Part shown: piece after piece, positions 28,441 through 37,204 of the stretch
Numbering within the stretch: the first letter of the stretch is position 1
Layout: each line of letters opens with the position of its first letter
NCBI RefSeq assembly: GCF_011044155.1
Contig: NZ_CP049056.1
Location: 372,001-436,000 of the forward strand
Direction of reading: 5' to 3'
From: Pikeienuella piscinae
GTDB lineage: Bacteria; Pseudomonadota; Alphaproteobacteria; Rhodobacterales; Rhodobacteraceae
DNA: 64,000 nucleotides
The notes under the pieces: model-generated
The model's database searches: none
What the model was told of the DNA's origin: nothing
The model's input: only the letters and a program-made list of their open reading frames with translations
Program-made: the position numbers and the translations under genes

Positions 28441-30051
28441 TCAGCTCGCCAGCGAGATTGTCGCGTTCGGCGCGCTCTTGCCGCGGCGGAGCGTGAGCCG
28501 GTTGAGCGCGATCACATAGGCCCGCGTCGAGGCGACGACCGTGTCGGTGTCGGCGGCTTGCCCGGTGACAATCCGTCCGTCCTCCTCCAGTTTGACCGAT
28601 ACGGTCGCCTGCGCGTCGATCCCGTCCATCACCGCGTTCACCTGATAGAGCTTGAGGACCGCCTCATGAGGAACCAGCTTGTTCACCGCCGCGAAGGCGG
28701 CGTCCACCGGGCCGTCACCCTCCGCCGTCACTTCATGATCGACCCCGTCGATGGCCAGCGTCAGTTCGGCGGAGCGCGGCGCGCCGGTTCCGCAGACAAC
28801 GCGGAGCGACCGGATGCGGATGCGGTCATTGGCGGCCGACGTGCGCTCATCGTCGATCAGCGCGACGATATCCTCGTCGTAGACGTCCTTCTTCGAATCG
28901 GCGAGGGCCTTGAAGCGCACGAACGCTTCCTGAAACGCATTGTCGCCGAGATCGATGCCGAGATCCTTCAGCTTGGCGCGAAAGGCGGCGCGCCCCGAAT
29001 GCTTGCCCATCACCAGCGCGCTGGCGGAGAGGCCCACATCCTCCGGCTTCATGATCTCGAAAGTCTCGGCGTTCTTCAACACGCCGTCCTGATGGATGCC
29101 GCTCTCATGCGCGAAGGCGTTCTTGCCGACGATCGCCTTGTTGAACTGCACCGGGAAGCCGGATGCGGTGGCGACCATGCGCGATGCGCTCATGATCTTC
29201 GTCGTGTCCAGCCCTGTATGATAGGGCATTATATCCCGCCGAACGCGCAGCGCCATCACCACCTCTTCGAGCGCAGTGTTTCCGGCTCGCTCGCCAAGCC
29301 CGTTGATCGTGCATTCGATCTGCCGCGCGCCGGCCTCCACCGCTGCCAGTGAGTTCGCGGTCGCCATTCCGAGATCGTTGTGGCAGTGAGTCGCGATCAC
29401 GCATTTGTCGAGTCCCGGCACGTTCTCGAGCAGATCACGGATGATCTGCGCCGATTCACGCGGCGCCGTGTAGCCGACAGTGTCGGGGATGTTGATCGTC
29501 GTCGCGCCTGCGGCGATGGCGACCTTCACCGTCTCGATCAGATAATCGCGCTCGGTCCTTGTCGCGTCCATCGGCGACCATTGCACATTGTCGCAAAGCG
29601 CGCGGGCGTGGCTGACGGTGTCCTCGATCTTGCGCAGAACCTGATCGCGATCCATCGCGAGTTGGTGCTGGCGATGGAGAGGGGAGGTGCCGATGAAGGT
29701 GTGGATACGTGGCTTCTTCGCATGGCGCACCGCATCCCATGCGCGGTCGATATCGCCTTTCGCGGCGCGCGCGAGGCCGCAGATCACCGATCGTTCCGCC
29801 ATGCGGGCGATTTCGCTCACCGCCTCGAAATCTCCCTCAGAGGCGATGGGAAAGCCGGCTTCGATGATATCGACGCCCATCTGATCGAGGATCGCGGCTA
29901 TGTCGAGCTTCTCCTGAAGCGTCATCGTCGCGCCGGGCGACTGCTCGCCGTCGCGCAGCGTCGTGTCGAAGATCAGCACGTGGTTGGGGTCGTTGGCGTC
30001 TACGGCGGTTTGATTCGCGCCGGGGGTGTCGGTTCGGTCGGTTGTGTTCAT
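28441..30051 (-). CDS. leuA: 2-isopropylmalate synthase
   Basis: First committed enzyme of leucine synthesis, condensing acetyl-CoA with 2-ketoisovalerate; 536 residues. The catalytic N-terminal barrel has [13 protein letters not shown] and the metal motif H-C-H-N-D-L-G. The C-terminal third (from about residue 400) is the regulatory LeuA dimer domain that binds leucine for feedback inhibition. An unusual 25-residue polar extension precedes the barrel. The gene is preceded by a Leu-codon leader peptide and hairpins (30098-30213), so expression is probably set by leucyl-tRNA supply. Confidence 0.97.
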
Positions 30052-30097
30052 GGGACTCGCTCAGCTTTTCCGGGGTTTCTGCGGCGCGTGGCTTATC

Positions 30098-30136
30098 CCC
30101 CAGACGCGCGCGCCGCGATCCCGGCGCGCCTAGGGG
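30098..30136 (-). promoter_or_regulatory. Attenuator-like hairpin in the leuA leader
   Basis: On the minus strand C-C-C-C plus GCGCGCC-type arms (30108-30114 with 30123-30129, and C-rich 30097-30101 with G-rich 30133-30136) form a strong G+C hairpin overlapping the leader-peptide stop codon. A second, perfect hairpin (8-bp arms GATCGCCC 30165-30172 and GGGCGATC 30177-30184, loop GACG) lies inside the leader peptide. A GATCGC repeat in the loop of the first could pair with the second, giving mutually exclusive folds. No T-run follows. Confidence 0.6.
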
Positions 30137-30213
30137 CGGCTAAGGAGGAGGACGCGCGCGCATAGATCGCCCGACGGGGCGATCAGGCAGGAGATATGCG
30201 CGACGATCATCAT
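30130..30213 (-). CDS. leuA leader peptide (27 residues, run of three Leu codons)
   Basis: A short frame directly upstream of leuA reads MMIVAHISCLIA then PSGDLCARVLLLSRP. Three consecutive Leu codons (CTC CTC CTT, 30150-30142) lie four codons before the stop, with two further Leu (CTG, CTA) earlier. That is the design of an amino-acid attenuator: ribosomes short of leucyl-tRNA stall at the run and change which hairpin forms. The start could be either of two adjacent ATGs (30213 or 30210). No Shine-Dalgarno is visible, and the probable promoter places the mRNA start at or near the ATG, so the peptide seems to be read from a leaderless message. Confidence 0.75.
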   Translation of the reverse strand: MMIVAHISCLIAPSGDLCARVLLLSRP

Positions 30214-30220
30214 GGCGCCT

Positions 30221-30248
30221 GTTATACGCACCGCGCCGCGTCATGCAA
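30221..30248 (-). promoter_or_regulatory. Candidate promoter for leuA leader
   Basis: On the minus strand TTGCAT (30248-30243), 16 bases, then TATAAC (30226-30221). The -10 ends seven bases before the leader ATG at 30213, so transcription would begin at or within a base or two of the start codon. Confidence 0.6.
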
Positions 30249-30283
30249 ACCCATTCGTGGCGCGCTTCGGTTTCCGCAACGCC

Positions 30284-31723
30284 TCAGTCGCCGGGGGCCG
30301 GTGGCGTCGGCGCCTCGCCGCGCTGGCCATCGACCCATTCGCCGTCAAAGATCGCGCCGTTGGCGAAGATCATCTCGCCCTTGCCGTGGCGTCGATTGTC
30401 TTTGAACGCGCCCTTGTAAACATTGCCGTTCGGATAGGTGGCGACGCCTTCGCCCTCGATCTTGTTGTCGACCCAGGAACCCTTGTAGGTGAAGCCGTCA
30501 GCCTGGGTGAAAACGCCTGTCCCCTCGCGCCGGCCATTGACGAATTCGCCCTCATAGATTCCGCCATCGGGGAAGTGGGCGGTTCCGGTTCCGTTCGGCT
30601 GGTCGTCGGCCCATTCGCCCTCGTATTCATAGCCGTCGGGATAGACGATGCGACCCTCGCCGTTGATCCGGCCGTTCTTGAATTCGCCCTTGTAGACGGC
30701 GCCGGAGGCGTAGCGGAACTCGCCTTGCCCCTCGATCCGGCCCTCCACCCATTCGCCCTCGTAGACGCCGCCGTCGGCAGTGGTCATCTTGCCGACGCCG
30801 GTGATGGCGTTGTCGACGAAAACACCCTCCAGAACCCGGCCATCGGCCAGGCGGGCGACGCCCGGACCCTCGAACCGGCCTTCGACCCATTCGCCCTCAT
30901 AGACATCGCCGTTCGCGGCCGTCAGCATGCCTTTTCCCTGGCGTTTGCCGGCGACGAACGCGCCTTCGTAAATGTCGCCATTCGCATAGTGCGCGCGGCC
31001 CTCGCCTTCGCGCTCGCCGTTGACGAATTCGCCCTCGTAGGCGTCGCCGTTCGCATAGGTCGCAGCGCCCATGCCGGCGATCTGGCCAGCCTTCCATTCG
31101 CCCTTGTAGACGAACCCGTCTGGCATCGTGATTTCGCCGGTTCCCTCGCGGACCCCAGCCTTGAAGGTTCCCGTATAGACCGAGCCGTCGGAATAGGTGA
31201 CCGTTCCTTCGCCGTCAGGCGCTCCATCGGTCCATTCGCCTTCGTAACGGTAGCCGTTCGGCCGGGTCATCACGCCGCGCCCGTTATGGGCGGAGTTCTG
31301 GAATTCGCCCTCGTAGCGTGCGCCGTCAGCATATGTCGCGACGCCCGACCCCTGAATCACGCCCCCAACCCAATCGCCCTCATAGGAGCCGCCATCGGAA
31401 TAGGTGATCTGACCGCGCCCGTTCGGGGCGCCGTCCTTGAACTCGCCCACATAGACCGAACCGTTCTCGTATTTGACGCGGCCTTCGCCCTCTATCCGCC
31501 CCTCGACCCATTCCCCCTCGTATTCATAGCCGCCCGGAAGGGTGAAGGAGCCGTAACCGTGCTGTTTGCCGTCCTTGAATTCGCCTTCGTAAACGCCGCC
31601 GCTGTCGTATTTCTTCACTGCGACGCTCGCTTCGTCGGCCGCAGCGCAATAGGGCAGGAGGGCGATCGCGCCCGCGCTGGCCATTCGCGCCCCGAGGGTC
31701 GCCCATCGGTCAATTCCGCGCAT
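30284..31723 (-). CDS. Exported MORN-repeat protein
   Basis: Protein of 479 residues consisting almost wholly of MORN repeats. An N-terminal signal (hydrophobic stretch about 8-27, A-L-L-P-Y-C-A-A-A) predicts export; P-Y-C-A is not a convincing lipobox. From residue 45 to 458 there are 18 uninterrupted 23-residue repeats of the form Y-E-G-E-W/F-x-x-G-x-x-x-G-x-G, then a partial repeat and a proline-rich end. MORN repeats form elongated beta-strand arrays that bind membranes or proteins; in bacteria few are characterised. ATG 31723 is preceded by GGGGAG. Neighbours (leuA, gltX) give no functional clue. Confidence 0.9.
   Translation of the reverse strand: MRGIDRWATLGARMASAGAIALLPYCAAADEASVAVKKYDSGGVYEGEFKDGKQHGYGSFTLPGGYEYEGEWVEGRIEGEGRVKYENGSVYVGEFKDGAPNGRGQITYSDGGSYEGDWVGGVIQGSGVATYADGARYEGEFQNSAHNGRGVMTRPNGYRYEGEWTDGAPDGEGTVTYSDGSVYTGTFKAGVREGTGEITMPDGFVYKGEWKAGQIAGMGAATYANGDAYEGEFVNGEREGEGRAHYANGDIYEGAFVAGKRQGKGMLTAANGDVYEGEWVEGRFEGPGVARLADGRVLEGVFVDNAITGVGKMTTADGGVYEGEWVEGRIEGQGEFRYASGAVYKGEFKNGRINGEGRIVYPDGYEYEGEWADDQPNGTGTAHFPDGGIYEGEFVNGRREGTGVFTQADGFTYKGSWVDNKIEGEGVATYPNGNVYKGAFKDNRRHGKGEMIFANGAIFDGEWVDGQRGEAPTPPAPGD
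30350..31591 (-). repeat. Tandem 69-bp coding repeats (18 copies, MORN)
   Basis: Eighteen consecutive, diverged 69-base units encode the 23-residue MORN motifs at residues 45-458. The units keep exact length and frame but vary widely at synonymous and non-motif positions, so the array is old and not freshly expanded. Units beginning YEGEWVEGRIEG occur twice (second and thirteenth), the closest pair. Confidence 0.85.
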
Positions 31724-31896
31724 CGTTCCGCTCCCCATCGTCCTACGTTCACCGCCACATGCTTTCGGCGGACAGTAGGTAGATGACCGCGGCCTGACAA
31801 CTCCACCGTGACGATGAGCGCCGCTTGCGCCGGCGCGGGCGTGGCGGCTATTGCGGGGCGCGGCGTGGTGAGCGCCGCGAATGGGAGCGACGGGCC

Positions 31897-33189
31897 ATGA
31901 TCAGAACGCGATTCGCGCCTTCGCCGACCGGGGCGCTGCATCTCGGCAATCTGCGCACGGCGGTGTTCAACGCACTGCTTGCGCGCGGTGCGGGGGGGCG
32001 GTTTCTACTCCGAATCGATGATACCGACCGGGAGCGTTCGGAGCAGCGCTTCGCCGATGCGATCCGCGCCGATCTCGACTGGCTCGGCCTCCGCTGGGAC
32101 GCGGAGTTCATCCAGTCCGAACGTATGGCGCTATACGAGGCGGCGGCGGAGCGGCTGAAAGCCGATGGACGGCTCTATCCGGCGTGGGAGAGCGCCAGTG
32201 ATCTCGCGCTCATGCGGCGTCGGCTTCTCGCTGCGAAACGCCCGCCGGTCTATGACCGCGCCGCGCTCAGGATGAGCGATACGGAGCGCGCGGAACTGAT
32301 GGCGACGCGCCCGCCGCACTGGCGCTTTCGGCTGGAGCCTGGTGTTATCGAATGGGACGACGGGCTGCGCGGCCCCCAGCGGATCGCGGCGGAGGCGGTC
32401 TCTGATCCGGTCCTGATCCGAGAGGATGGCCAGTTTCTCTATTCGCTCTGCTCGGTGGTCGACGACGCCGAGATGGGGGTGACGGATGTGGTCAGGGGCG
32501 CCGACCATGTCACCAACACCGCGACGCAGATCCAGCTTTTCGCCGCGCTGGGCGCCGCGCCGCCTCGCTTCGCGCATCATGCGCTGATGGTCGGGCCGGG
32601 CGGCGAGAAGATATCGAAACGCCTTGGTGGTCTTTCGGTGGCGGATTTGCGCGAGTCGGGGGCGGAGCCGACGGCGGTGCTTTCGTGGCTGGCGCGTATC
32701 GGATCGGCGCGGCCGGTCGAGCCGCTCTGGTCGGTCGAGGCGGCGGCGGAGGATTTCGATCTGTCCACATTCGGCGCCGCGCCGGTCCGCGCCGCCACTG
32801 CCGATATCATGCAGCTCTCGGCGAAAATGCTGCACGACGCTCCGTTCGAGGCCGTGCGCGCCCGGCTTCCGTCCGAGGTGACGGAGGCGTTTTGGCTCGC
32901 GGTCCGGCCCAATATCGACCGGCTGGAGGACGTTCTCGATTGGCGCGCCGTCGCCGCCGGGGCGACTCCGCTGATCGCACCGGAGGATGCGGAGTTCGTA
33001 GCTGAGGCGCTGGCGCTGCTCCCGCCCCGACCGTGGGACGGGGGCACATGGGCGGCATGGACCGGCGCGGTGAAGGCGGCGACCGGGCGCAAGGGCAGGG
33101 CGCTTTTCCTTCCGCTCCGCCGTGCGCTCACCGGGCGGGATCACGGGCCGGAAATGGCGACGTTCATGCCGTTTCTTGCGAAACCCTGA
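31897..33189 (+). CDS. gltX: Glutamyl-tRNA synthetase
   Basis: Class I aminoacyl-tRNA synthetase of 430 residues charging tRNA with glutamate. The HIGH-like motif is in F-A-P-S-P-T-G-A-L-H-L-G-N-L, and the KMSKS-like motif reads K-I-S-K-R. The protein is short for GltX (usually 465-500); alphaproteobacteria often carry two GltX copies, one of them shorter, so this may be the second copy. Absence of the four-Cys zinc site argues against the GluQ paralogue. ATG 31897 gives the canonical M-I-R-T-R-F-A-P start; upstream in-frame residues are low-complexity Arg/Gly. Confidence 0.92.
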   Translation: MIRTRFAPSPTGALHLGNLRTAVFNALLARGAGGRFLLRIDDTDRERSEQRFADAIRADLDWLGLRWDAEFIQSERMALYEAAAERLKADGRLYPAWESASDLALMRRRLLAAKRPPVYDRAALRMSDTERAELMATRPPHWRFRLEPGVIEWDDGLRGPQRIAAEAVSDPVLIREDGQFLYSLCSVVDDAEMGVTDVVRGADHVTNTATQIQLFAALGAAPPRFAHHALMVGPGGEKISKRLGGLSVADLRESGAEPTAVLSWLARIGSARPVEPLWSVEAAAEDFDLSTFGAAPVRAATADIMQLSAKMLHDAPFEAVRARLPSEVTEAFWLAVRPNIDRLEDVLDWRAVAAGATPLIAPEDAEFVAEALALLPPRPWDGGTWAAWTGAVKAATGRKGRALFLPLRRALTGRDHGPEMATFMPFLAKP

Positions 33190-33197
33190 CGCCGCGC

Positions 33198-33226
33198 TTG
33201 CCCTCGCCGCCGGGCTGAGGCATACC
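33198..33226 (+). promoter_or_regulatory. Candidate promoter for cysS leader
   Basis: TTGCCC (33198-33203), 17 bases, CATACC (33221-33226). Eight bases separate the -10 from a small frame at 33235, so the transcript would be nearly leaderless. The -10 match is modest. Confidence 0.4.
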
Positions 33227-33234
33227 CTCGCTCC

Positions 33235-33279
33235 ATGAACGCCGCGATCTTCATTTGCGAGATTTGCATTATCCGCTGA
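33235..33279 (+). CDS. Candidate Ile/Cys leader peptide of cysS-cimA (14 residues)
   Basis: A 15-codon frame between gltX and cysS reads MNAAIFICEICIIR. Five of the 14 residues are Ile (codons ATC, ATT, ATT, ATT, ATC) and two are Cys (both TGC), packed into nine consecutive positions. Downstream are cysS (uses Cys) and, overlapping it, cimA, the entry enzyme to isoleucine via citramalate. The match between codons and pathway suggests attenuation. Beyond the frame, a stem GGCCC (33330-33334) / GGGCC (33340-33344) lies before the cysS start, and CCGCC in it could pair instead with GGCGG at 33291-33295. No Shine-Dalgarno precedes the ATG. A chance frame cannot be excluded. Confidence 0.5.
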   Translation: MNAAIFICEICIIR

Positions 33280-33362
33280 CACCTGTCCGCGGCGGCGCTT
33301 CCCTGTTCTCTCATCACGACTGAACCAGCGGCCCGCCGGGGGCCAACCCATGTTGTGAACCG

Positions 33363-34757
33363 ATGACCGAGATCAGACTGCACAACTCCCTGACCCGCCG
33401 GAAGGAGGTTTTCAAACCTCTGAACCCCGAGAATGTGCGGATGTATGTCTGCGGGCCGACCGTCTACGACCGCGCCCATATCGGCAACGCCCGCCCGGCG
33501 GTGGTGTTCGACGTGCTTTATCGGTTGCTCCGCCATATCTATGGCGAGGATCATGTCACTTATGTCCGCAATATCACGGATATAGACGACAAAATTAATG
33601 CGCGGGCGAAAGAGACGTTGAAACCCGATGAGACGCCGGTCGAGGCGATCCGGCGCATCACCGACGAGACCGCCGCCTGGTACCGGGACGACATGGCGGC
33701 GCTCGGCTGCCTCCCCCCGACGCACCAGCCCCGCGCCACGGAATTTGTGCCGCAGATGGTGGCGATGATCTCGGAACTGATCGAGAAGGGCAACGCCTAC
33801 GCCGCCGAAGGCCATGTGCTGTTCGAGGTCGCGACCTATCCCGAATACGGCCGCCTCTCCGGCCGCTCGACCGAAGACATGATCGCCGGCGCGCGGGTTG
33901 AGGTCGCGCCCTATAAACGCGACCCGATGGATTTCGTCCTCTGGAAACCCTCCACCGACGACCAGCCGGGCTGGGACAGCCCATGGGGTAGAGGAAGGCC
34001 CGGTTGGCATATCGAATGCTCGGCGATGGCGTCGGAGCTTCTCGGCGAGACCTTCGATATTCACGGCGGCGGCGCGGATTTGCAGTTTCCGCATCACGAG
34101 AACGAAATCGCGCAAAGCTGCTGCGCGGCACCGGGTGCGGGGTTCGCGAACCTCTGGATGCACAACGGGATGATCAATGTCGATGGGAGGAAGATGTCGA
34201 AATCGCTCGGCAACTTCCTGACCGTCGAGGACTTGCGGGGACAGGCGCCGGGCGAAGTGCTGCGCCTGGCGCTTCTGGGGACGCATTACCGTGGAACGCT
34301 GGACTGGACGCAGCAACGAATGGATGAGGCTGCAGCGGCGTTGACCAAGTGGCGAGCTGTTAGTGAGGGGGCTTCCCCTACGCTTCCTCATTCAGTGATT
34401 GAGGCTCTAGTCGACGATCTAAATACTCCTGCAGCAATTGCGGAGCTGCATCGTTTGGCTCGGGAGGGAGAGGGCGATTCACTTGCTGGCGGAATGGCGC
34501 TAATGAATTTCCGTGCGCCGAACTTGCATGTTTATCAGGAAATTCTCGACAGCGAATCCGAGCTAATCGAAGGGTTGCTTGCTGAGCGATCAGCAGCTCG
34601 TGCTACGAAAGATTTCGGTCGCGCCGATACTATACGCAAGCGGCTTGATGATGCGGGAGTACTGGTGATTGACGGGAAGGGTGGACCTTCTCAGTGGCGG
34701 CGTGGTCCAGGCTTCGATCCCAAAAAGCTTTACGACAACCTGTCGGAGCAAAGATGA
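33363..34757 (+). CDS. cysS: Cysteinyl-tRNA synthetase
   Basis: Class I synthetase of 464 residues charging tRNA(Cys). Visible are the zinc/ATP region Y-V-C-G-P-T-V-Y-D, the HIGH-like H-I-G-N, the W-H-I-E-C-S segment and K-M-S-K-S. The catalytic part (33363 to about 34340) matches its neighbours in base composition. From about 34356 to 34745, which encodes the C-terminal tRNA-binding helical domain, the DNA is much richer in A and T: of roughly 48 codons from 34356 I count about 30 ending in A or T, while the neighbouring genes rarely do so. The reading frame and domain remain intact, so the gene seems functional but mosaic. It overlaps cimA. Confidence 0.95.
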
Positions 34758-36373
34758 TGACCCGCACCCGCCTCTCCCTCTTCGACACCACCCTCCGCGA
34801 CGGCCAGCAGACGCAGGGGGTGGATTTCTCCGGCGACGACAAGCGCAAGATCGCGCTGGCGCTTGACGCGCTCGGTCTCGACTATGTCGAGGGTGGCTGG
34901 CCCGGCGCCAACCCGACCGACAGCGAGTTCTTCGCAAATGCGCCTGTCCTGAAACACGCCACCTTCACCGCCTTCGGCATGACGAAGCGCGCCGGGCGTT
35001 CGGCGGCGAATGACGATGTGCTGGCCGAGGTGGCGAACGCCGGAACGCCCGCCGTCTGCCTCGTCGGCAAGAGCTACGATTTCCATGTCGAGACCGCGCT
35101 CGGCATCACGCTCGACGAGAACGTCGCGAACATTTCTGAAAGCATCGCACATCTCGTCGGCCTCGGCCGCGAAGCGCTTTTCGACGCCGAGCATTTCTTC
35201 GACGGCTACAAGGCGAACCCGGATTACGCGCTGCGCTGCCTCGACGCAGCGATGGAGGCCGGCGCGCGCTGGGTCGTGCTTTGCGACACCAATGGCGGCA
35301 CGCTGCCGGACGAAATCGCGGAGATCACTGGCGCGGTCGCCAGGCGTCTGCCGGGTGACCGGCTCGGCATCCACACCCATAACGACACCGAAACCGCCGT
35401 CGCCGGGGCGCTGGCGGCGGTGGATGCGGGCGCGCGGCAGATTCAGGGCACGCTCAACGGGTTGGGGGAGCGTTGCGGCAACGCCAATCTCGTCTCGATC
35501 ATCCCGACGCTGCTGCTGAAGGAGCCGTGGGCGAGCCGTTACGAGGTTTCCGTCCCGAAGGACAGATTGCCGGGGCTGAGCGGGCTAAGCCGGATGCTCG
35601 ACGAGCTTCTGAACCGTGCGCCCGACCGTCACGCACCCTATGTCGGCGCGGCGGCCTTCGCGCACAAGGCCGGGCTCCACGCCTCCGCCATCATCAAGGA
35701 TCCGACGACCTATGAGCATATCCCGCCGGAGGCGGTGGGAAACGAACGCGTCATCCCGATGTCGAATCAGGCCGGCCGCTCGAACCTTCTGCGCCGGCTT
35801 TCCGAGGCGGGCATCAGCGCCGAGAAGAGTGACCCGCGGCTTTCGCGCCTCCTGCAGGATGTGAAGGACAAGGAGGACAGGGGCTTCTCCTATGACAGCG
35901 CGGAAGCGTCATTCCAGCTGCTGGCGCGGGCGCATCTCGGCTTGCGCCGGAAGTTCTTCGATGTCGAACGGTTCCGTGTCACGGTCGAGAGGCGGCACAA
36001 TGCGATGAAGAATCTCGTCACCGTCTCGGAAGCGGTGGTGGTGGTGAATGTCGATGGCTCACGGTTCATCTCCGCTTCGGAAAGCCTCGATGAGGCGGGC
36101 TCCGATCAGGGGCCGGTCAATGCGCTTTCGAAGGCTTTGAGCAAGGATCTTGGCAAATATGACGCCGCGATCGCCGACATGCGGCTGGTGGACTTCAAGG
36201 TGCGCATCCTCTCCGCCGGCACCGAGGCGATCACCCGCGTCCTGCTTGAGAGCTGTGATGGCGAGGGGCGACGCTGGACCACAGTGGGTGTTTCAGCCAA
36301 CATCGTAGATGCTTCCTTTCAGGCGCTGATCGATGCGATTGACTTCAAGCTTCATCGCGATACAGACCGATAA
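34754..36373 (+). CDS. cimA: Citramalate synthase
   Basis: Condenses pyruvate and acetyl-CoA to (R)-citramalate, the threonine-independent start of isoleucine synthesis; 539 residues. The DRE-TIM barrel motif [13 protein letters not shown] near the N-terminus distinguishes it from LeuA (G-E-Q-S-P-G). Metal ligands are in H-T-H-N-D-T-E, and a C-terminal LeuA-type regulatory domain starts near residue 400. Either ATG 34754 or 34757 is possible; GGAG at 34745-34748 serves both, and both overlap the cysS stop. Co-transcription with cysS is very likely. Confidence 0.95.
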
Positions 36374-36376
36374 GTG

Positions 36377-37204
36377 ATGAGAGCGCCAATTCTTTCCGCT
36401 GTCGGTGAGGCGGCGCGGCGGGGCGATGAGCCGCGGTTCCTCGCGGCGCTCTTCGCGCCCCCGGCGCGGCGCGAGGCGCTTTTCGCATTGCTCGCCTTCA
36501 ATCTCGAGCTGTCGAAGATCCCGGCGACGGTGTCGGAGCCGATCCTGGGCGAGATCCGGCTCGCCTGGTGGCGCGAGGCGCTGGACGATCTTTTCGAGCG
36601 CGACATCGTGCGGGGCCATGAGGTGATCGCGGCGCTCGATGCGGCGCGCGGCGCGGCGGCGCTCGACCATGGGGCGCTGGTGGCGATGGTCGACGCGCGC
36701 CTCTATGCGCTCACCCCGGGCGGAATCGAGGATACCGCCGCGCTCGGGGCCTATCTCGGCGGGACGGGCGGTGCGCTCGTCGGCTCTCTCGTGCGGGCGC
36801 TTGGCGGCGACGCGGCGGCGGTGGAGGTCGCGGCCCTCGCGGGGCGCGCGGAAGCGACGGGGCGGTTGATCGCGGCGCTGCCGGAAATCATCGCCAACGG
36901 CGGCGACGCGCACCTCACCGCGGGGCTGGACATGAACGCGCTCCGCGAGGGGCGGACGCCGGCGGCGCTGAGCGACGCTCTGCGCGGACTGGCCGAGGAT
37001 GGACTGGCGCGGCTCGGCGCGGCGCGGGCGCGGCGGCGCGAGGTTCCGCGCGCCATGCGTGCGCCGCTTTTCAGCGTCCATGTCGCGGAGCGGGTGCTAA
37101 TTAGCGCCACGAAGCCGGGTTTCGACCCATTCGGATATGAAGAAACGTCGCCATTTCGCGCCCGGGTCGAACTTCTCGCTCGGGCCGCCGCCGGGCGCTT
37201 CTGA
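36377..37204 (+). CDS. Squalene/phytoene synthase-like protein (NDUFAF6 type)
   Basis: All-alpha protein of 275 residues resembling the squalene/phytoene synthase superfamily, with E-I-R-L-A-W-W-R-E-A-L near residue 58. The first Asp-rich catalytic motif of true synthases is not apparent, so it is closer to the NDUFAF6-like group, which in mitochondria helps assemble complex I. Real prenyl-transferase activity is therefore doubtful. It begins three bases after cimA and ends seven bases from a convergent lipoprotein gene. Confidence 0.75.
   Translation: MRAPILSAVGEAARRGDEPRFLAALFAPPARREALFALLAFNLELSKIPATVSEPILGEIRLAWWREALDDLFERDIVRGHEVIAALDAARGAAALDHGALVAMVDARLYALTPGGIEDTAALGAYLGGTGGALVGSLVRALGGDAAAVEVAALAGRAEATGRLIAALPEIIANGGDAHLTAGLDMNALREGRTPAALSDALRGLAEDGLARLGAARARRREVPRAMRAPLFSVHVAERVLISATKPGFDPFGYEETSPFRARVELLARAAAGRF

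Follow-up and report, generated by a model that had tools for sequence, protein, structure and literature searches.

The DNA analysed here, called the window, is a stretch of 64,000 nucleotides of the Pikeienuella piscinae contig NZ_CP049056.1. It holds cysS, assigned to cysteinyl-tRNA synthetase by the look of its sequence and an orthologue search, and cimA, which by its sequence and the orthologues found behind cysS probably encodes a citramalate synthase of the LeuA family. An earlier sequence-only reading of the window had claimed that the two genes overlap, and the overlap is one base, position 34757, shared by the cysS stop and the cimA start. Upstream lies a short open reading frame (leader ORF), whose end is separated from the cysS start by 83 nt. 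The features of the interval are listed below, the RNA elements as predicted.

33198..33203, plus strand: -35-like element TTGCCC, read from the sequence, with TTG conserved near -35 of the leader ATG in 80 relatives
33223..33228, plus strand: -10-like element TACCCT, read from the sequence, with A at -11 of the leader ATG
33235..33279, plus strand: leader ORF MNAAIFICEICIIR, from sequence and family conservation; its start is predicted to be the first base of the transcript
33237..33245, plus strand: 5' arm of stem P0, within codons 1-4, predicted to pair with 33292-33297 and 33299-33301 in a terminator-like fold
33256..33268, plus strand: small hairpin within the leader, predicted by folding, which would hold the Cys codons
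33274..33280, plus strand: segment X, predicted 5' arm of stem P1, spanning the stop codon and pairing with 33285-33291
33285..33301, plus strand: segment Y, from folding, composed of the 3' arm of P1 (33285-33291) and the 3' arm of P0 (33292-33301)
33300..33313, plus strand: pyrimidine-rich tail closing the fold, read from the sequence and weakly U-rich in this genome
33328..33344, plus strand: segment Z, approximate bounds, alternative antiterminator-like partner of Y in constrained folds
33363..34757, plus strand: cysS
34757..36373, plus strand: putative cimA

The leader ORF translates as MNAAIFICEICIIR followed by a stop, with five Ile and two Cys codons, all within codons 5-13. Both the coordinates and the composition of the 14-residue frame described in the sequence-only reading are exact. 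The Cys codons are 8 and 11, and thus not in tandem. As in the short ORFs of ribosome-mediated attenuators, the codons match the amino acids of the downstream genes. The window has 270 ATG frames of 9-20 aa, counting both strands, and this one alone reaches six or more Ile or Cys per nine residues. With all loci pooled, such a density is found in 120 of 9134 ATG frames, the pool counting nested starts as well as loci that overlap or occur more than once; 117 of these lie upstream of cysS (116, plus the window's own leader counted again as locus L001) and three do not. No family of Rfam 15, including T-box, matched at gathering score in 15 loci, and window positions 30000-37000 gave three weak matches, none at gathering score.

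On the minus strand, an ATG frame with a Leu run, MMIVAHISCLIAPSGDLCARVLLLSRP (30130-30213), starts 7 bases after a TATAAC box and lies upstream of a leuA-like gene (28441-30051, minus); it may be another leaderless leader, one for Leu. The LLPLIGR...GETA string before cysS in several loci was considered as a second leader and rejected, as it looks like the C-terminus encoded by the gltX-type gene upstream.

The spacing of a -10 element predicts where transcription starts. Relative to the leader ATG, the 80 relatives have A at -11 in 60% and G at -14 in 56%, and the conserved -35/-10 spacing therefore places the expected transcription start at the A of the leader ATG. A word resembling a Shine-Dalgarno (SD) sequence precedes six of 79 leaders, the background being 6%. 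Promoter spacing by comparison and the lack of a Shine-Dalgarno excess thus predict a leaderless ORF. A simple sigma-70 scan of 33000-33500 gave no promoter site, which means that the pair resembles the E. coli consensus only weakly; the suggested -35/-10-like pair starting the transcript near the ATG holds as a conserved pattern among the relatives, and not as a consensus promoter.

The sequence-only reading was to stand or fall with the retention of the frame and its Ile and Cys codons in close relatives having cysS-cimA. Within the genus the leader is kept in four of four genomes, as MNAAIFICEICIIR, MSRAIIICEICIIR (twice) and MITATSTCEICIIR, and the nearest named record by cysS, a Rhodobacteraceae MAG (L282) at 69% identity to that of the window, carries MRNLICICGICIIC. 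The family sample comprised 100 genomes (own included) with a cysS match in 97, from which the loci of 90 were used; the seven matching genomes left out are G019, G039, G040, G064, G075, G081, and G101. Together with three other genus genomes this gave 93 loci, all with a readable cysS N-terminus, in which the leader was chosen by Ile/Cys score and then by visual check. A clear Ile/Cys leader is found in 80 of the 93, L054 has a degenerate copy (MDARATLFCCRIV), and 12 have none or an unreadable one, including L069, cut by a contig end.

By comparison of the 80 leaders, both amino acids belong to the conserved make-up of the frame (mean 3.8 Ile and 2.6 Cys; 31% and 21%, respectively, of the residues after Met). 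Codon -3 is Ile in 75 of 80 leaders and codon -4 is Cys in 55, and one leader (L050) has five Ile and no Cys. Cys is encoded by TGC (187) and TGT (19), and Ile by ATT (164), ATC (139) and ATA (3). Since ATT and ATC are both used, the amino acid is kept and not one DNA word, except at codon -3. At this codon ATT occurs 68 times and ATC seven times in the 75 leaders, against the preference of the cysS genes, where ATC is about four times commoner than ATT.

Presence of the leader goes with the linkage of cimA to cysS. Of the 93 loci, 87 have cimA behind cysS in the same orientation, three are cut by contig ends and three lack it. The gap in the family is ~3-749 nt, and the orthologues behind cysS have 54-86% identity (LeuA-like genes ~32-34%). 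Twenty-three new family loci came from an order sample, where 60 of 61 genomes matched, the best 30 of the 60 were used and 27 loci were analysed (L117, L146-L171), four being repeats. The leader is kept in 99 of 107 readable linked family loci, L054 counted in, the eight without it being L023, L041, L047, L067, L082, L088, L092, and L093. It occurs in none of the five family loci without cimA behind cysS (L058, L077, L087, L146, L152), giving a Fisher p of 1e-5, or 8e-5 with L146 and L152, from one genus, counted once. Two of the L058, L077 and L087 genomes have LeuA-like genes but no cimA, and one has cimA elsewhere without a leader. In G075, where the cysS match is only 42% identical, cimA is present without a leader. 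L047 and L087 lack the leader and retain the Z element (TTGCTAAGCCCGCCGCG) just before cysS, as if the loss were recent. A frame of only 14 codons could in principle owe its composition to chance and have no function, but conservation, composition and cimA linkage all speak against this, and make it vanishingly improbable.

Outside the family, 113 places matched and 88 loci were taken, nearly all one per family, the 25 left out being mostly the weakest. Forty-two are linked to cimA and 46 have no cimA in the sequence covered, six of the latter being only partly readable. An Ile/Cys leader was found in five of the linked loci (L121, L122, L124, L125, L201) and in none of the unlinked ones, while 37 of the 42 have no such leader by the score cut, which was set after the data had been seen; the excess is slight (two-sided p 0.02 with 0/46, or 0.055 with 0/40 fully readable loci). 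For all of the five but L124, the family was searched for kin. The leader is kept in 3/3 kin loci in the G205 family, 2/2 in the G201 family and 1/1 in the G207 family; a further G201-family genome gave no match and the search found no kin for G148. L238, a second cysS in the G207-family kin, is without cimA and has no leader.

Named records extend the distribution to Rhizobiales. Seventy-nine of 80 such records were analysed, 27 of which, Rhodobacteraceae among them, have a frame above the score cut used outside the family. The leader is MKTVICIICRKIIR in Rhizobium leguminosarum and Ensifer adhaerens, MKTKCTIIACIITC in Devosia, and MKTSFAICGICIIG in two Mesorhizobium records. In Phyllobacterium (MKTSSVTIITCRIIIS) and Bradyrhizobium (MNGHLEICSICREIIS) cimA lies ~1094 and ~662 nt behind cysS, respectively. 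Six Rhizobiales loci (L324, L327, L333, L335, L337, L343) have an Ile/Cys leader and no cimA within 2000 nt behind cysS. Judging by their translations, the small genes behind cysS in these loci and in L351 look GFA-type and, in some loci, VOC-type. The leader peptide of Rhizobium had no match in plasmids.

Where cysS and cimA part, leader composition tends to follow gene content. In the L137 family (named kin: Parvibaculaceae record L330), 28 cysS loci with a readable start were found, several being close relatives of each other, and in the 26 with sequence behind cysS (all but L260 and L266) no cimA lies within the 1.2-1.5 kb covered there. For comparison of Ile content, the upstream ATG frame was chosen on Cys alone in both families. 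A frame with at least two Cys precedes cysS in 25 of the 28 L137-family loci, where Ile makes up 2.2% of the other residues, and in 68 of 87 loci of the linked family sample, where it makes up 38.8%; at least two Ile are found in 2/25 vs 64/68 leaders. Examples among L240-L266 are Cys-rich, nearly Ile-free leaders (MTCRCC..., MTRRTTCCRTS...), located ~100-190 nt before a cysS without adjacent cimA. L137 and L261, which have such Cys-rich leaders, gave no Rfam match. In the L137 genome, cimA is far from cysS (L268) and is preceded by MNIINAIITKGLIISG, with six Ile and no Cys. Of 33 genomes searched that lack an adjacent cimA, 14 have cimA, and one of the 14 has an Ile-rich leader; the other 13 have none, one of them (L270) with only 246 nt of upstream sequence. 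Two of the 13, L274 and L278, lie in the same orientation as cysS and ~2 kb behind it. Near the separate cimA L281, a mixed Ile/Cys frame was rejected, being on the opposite strand.

The earlier proposal that one leader senses two amino acids gains from these families with cysS alone, whose predicted leaders have Cys and hardly any Ile. Two other interpretations bear on the same data. The peptide itself may be active as a Cys-rich microprotein, its Ile and Cys content being its chemistry. Composition is conserved over many genera, and peTrpL of Sinorhizobium meliloti is a described case of a leader peptide that also acts in trans (PMC7298713). However, the residues vary in order and the peptides in length, and the composition changes with the gene behind the leader, which is unexpected under a shared protein function, so that this interpretation appears very improbable. 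Alternatively, the element may be a Cys-only cysS attenuator such as uORFC-8-2, described with Cys codons only in the text available (PMC8632094), and the Ile codons may be incidental, e.g., arising from the need of the RNA around the Cys codons to pair. The dominance of ATT at codon -3 and the six Rhizobiales loci that keep Ile codons without cimA within 2 kb would agree with this. But Ile is steadier than Cys in the family, as seen at codon -3 and in L050, it nearly disappears in the L137 family, and Ile forms runs of its own in leaders of other families, such as L121 and L122. Incidental Ile codons are thus improbable, although less so than an active peptide. It is reasonably probable that the element is a modular, leaderless two-input attenuator, in which Ile and Cys codons track cimA and cysS, with Cys-only or Ile-only leaders where the genes part, and which occurs in Rhodobacteraceae, in Rhizobiales and in further families of Alphaproteobacteria.

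The competing G+C stems claimed after the frame are real as predicted folds, and correspond to P0 and to P1 at the stop codon. When 12 leaders, including that of the window, were folded singly, most formed a junction of P0, P1 and the small Cys-codon hairpin; folds of L003, L035, and L016 deviate from it in detail. P0 and P1 are also present in predicted folds of the R. leguminosarum, Devosia, Mesorhizobium and Stappia leaders and of L122, P0 is weak in L268, and L235 folds otherwise. In relatives, segment Y mostly reads GCGGGC and then turns U-rich. Z, in ribosome-masked folds where it pairs with Y, is often GAAGTTGCTAAGCCCGCC, and lies ~20-40 nt before the cysS start.

Pairing was compared across 79 leaders by an alignment-free permutation test, in which the two arms of one genome are matched against arms from other genomes; L006, a near copy of L003, was left out, and shared ancestry is not fully removed by the test. 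P0 gave z -10.3 and P1 z -6.2, each with 0/5000 permutations as good. Y1:Z had z -4.7 (0/5000), Y2:Z, where Y2 is the U-rich half of Y, z -2.1 (98/5000), and the whole Y:Z z -6.5 (0/2000), or -5.4 with other bounds. Among control pairings, z was -1.0 for upstream:Y2, +1.3 for first codons:Z, +2.3 for leader middle:Y2, +1.0 for Y:W, +4.6 for X:W, +1.0 for leader body:X and -0.3 for leader body:Z; X:Z gave 0.0 in one version and -2.3 in the other.

Because P0 shifts register between lineages, its support comes from this alignment-free test. In alignment A1 (45 of the 79 leaders), six Y:Z column pairs are intact in 31-44 of 45 rows, in columns that hardly vary. Compared with shuffled sequences, the folds are modestly more stable (mean z -1.4 for the terminator-like segment and -1.3 from Y to Z). 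Mutually exclusive folds are predicted by folding and fit the permutation tests, while RNAalifold predicted no pair in the 49-sequence alignment A2. The alignment-free tests support a model in which Y would pair with the first codons and stop region or, as the exclusive alternative, with Z. T content in the family is 44-59% at stop+18 to +29, so the 3' end is U-rich there and weakly so in the window copy, and a terminator scan of 33000-33500 found no terminator. An SD-like word precedes cysS in 64 of 79 loci, a count that carries no weight, since the SD score was one criterion for choosing the cysS start and so inflates it.

Given codon content, conservation, linkage and predicted pairing, the leader is most likely an attenuator mediated by the ribosome, with two amino acids as its inputs. 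Transcription would start at the leader AUG, and a ribosome would load on the bare 5' end. With ample Ile-tRNA and Cys-tRNA, it would finish the frame and leave, the first codons and stop region would pair with Y, and the hairpin beside the U-rich stretch would stop transcription. When either charged tRNA is scarce, the ribosome would halt on Ile or Cys codons and cover both 5' arms, which would free Y to pair with Z and let cysS-cimA be transcribed. The Cys codons would serve cysS, and the Ile codons cimA. Comparison supports the frame, its conservation and codon composition, the promoter spacing and the pairing of P0, P1 and Y:Z; from these we infer that the ribosome stalls, that transcription terminates, that cysS and cimA share a transcript and that either amino acid elicits a response.

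The same two amino acids might be sensed in a different manner, through translation of cysS, with the ribosome site freed or hidden, or through Rho, and no intrinsic terminator would then be needed. The position of Z close to the cysS start and the weak U-tract in the window would suit such a course, as would a slight own-partner excess of Z with the ribosome-site region (Z:W, z -2.0). That value is, however, below the support for P0, P1 or Y:Z, and family members share a U-rich stretch beside the hairpin. Control by translation or Rho is therefore rather unlikely, and termination at the hairpin beside the U-rich stretch is preferred.

Several known systems resemble this one in part. Enterobacterial ilv and thr leaders have codons for more than one amino acid. 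In Actinobacteria, ilvB-type leaders similarly have codons for several amino acids in one leader, as described in the text available (PMC1262725), but these belong to one branched pathway, whereas here a synthetase substrate is combined with a biosynthetic product. The leader of S. meliloti trpL is similar in form, being leaderless, of 14 codons, alphaproteobacterial and involved in terminator vs antiterminator folding; according to the parts of the sources consulted it reads Trp only and regulates trpE(G) (PMC7298713, PMC10117765). In mycobacteria, a leaderless polycysteine ORF was reported as a cysteine-responsive operon attenuator (Canestrari et al., 2020, via PMC9094748). It shares with the present leader the short leaderless frame with Cys codons and differs in reading a single amino acid and in belonging to another phylum, the likeness being drawn from its title and citing mentions.

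The published motif uORFC-8-2 is a candidate cysS attenuator of Rhodobacterales with 145 examples and Cys codons only (RNA Biol 2021, PMC8632094). In the passages available it has a conserved short-ORF AUG, Cys codons dominated by UGC and usually in tandem at positions 14-15, two stems, the first holding the Cys codons, and a U-run at the 3' end (PMC8632094). The window leader likewise lies upstream of cysS in Rhodobacterales and has the conserved AUG. Tandem Cys at 14-15 is absent from the window copy and many relatives have the tandem earlier in the frame; moreover, Ile is here at least as conserved as Cys, cimA is linked, the Y:Z alternative is proposed, and the range extends beyond the Rhodobacterales of the description to Rhizobiales and other families. 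The family element is nevertheless very probably the uORFC-8-2 motif, as judged from the paper's text. "Isoleucine" has no occurrence in the main text of PMC8632094, and the passages on uORFC-8-2 contain no cimA. The statement in the sequence-only reading that no cysS-cimA attenuator is described needs amending, since a cysS attenuator is in print; it holds in that this is described with Cys only and without cimA in those passages. Among the literature matches listed, with subscription papers mostly outside coverage, only PMC8632094 concerned this locus, and none mentioned Ile codons, a cimA link or a wider range for uORFC-8-2. The term cysS has no occurrence in the available text of PMC2965389 and PMC3616915.

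If the proposed attenuation is true, one short leader would sense two unrelated amino acids and control an aminoacyl-tRNA synthetase and a biosynthetic enzyme together, and the published motif, explained for Cys only, would get its full reading. The gene splits would provide natural experiments on the role of each kind of codon. It would then become testable why many alphaproteobacteria couple Cys charging to Ile synthesis by the citramalate route.
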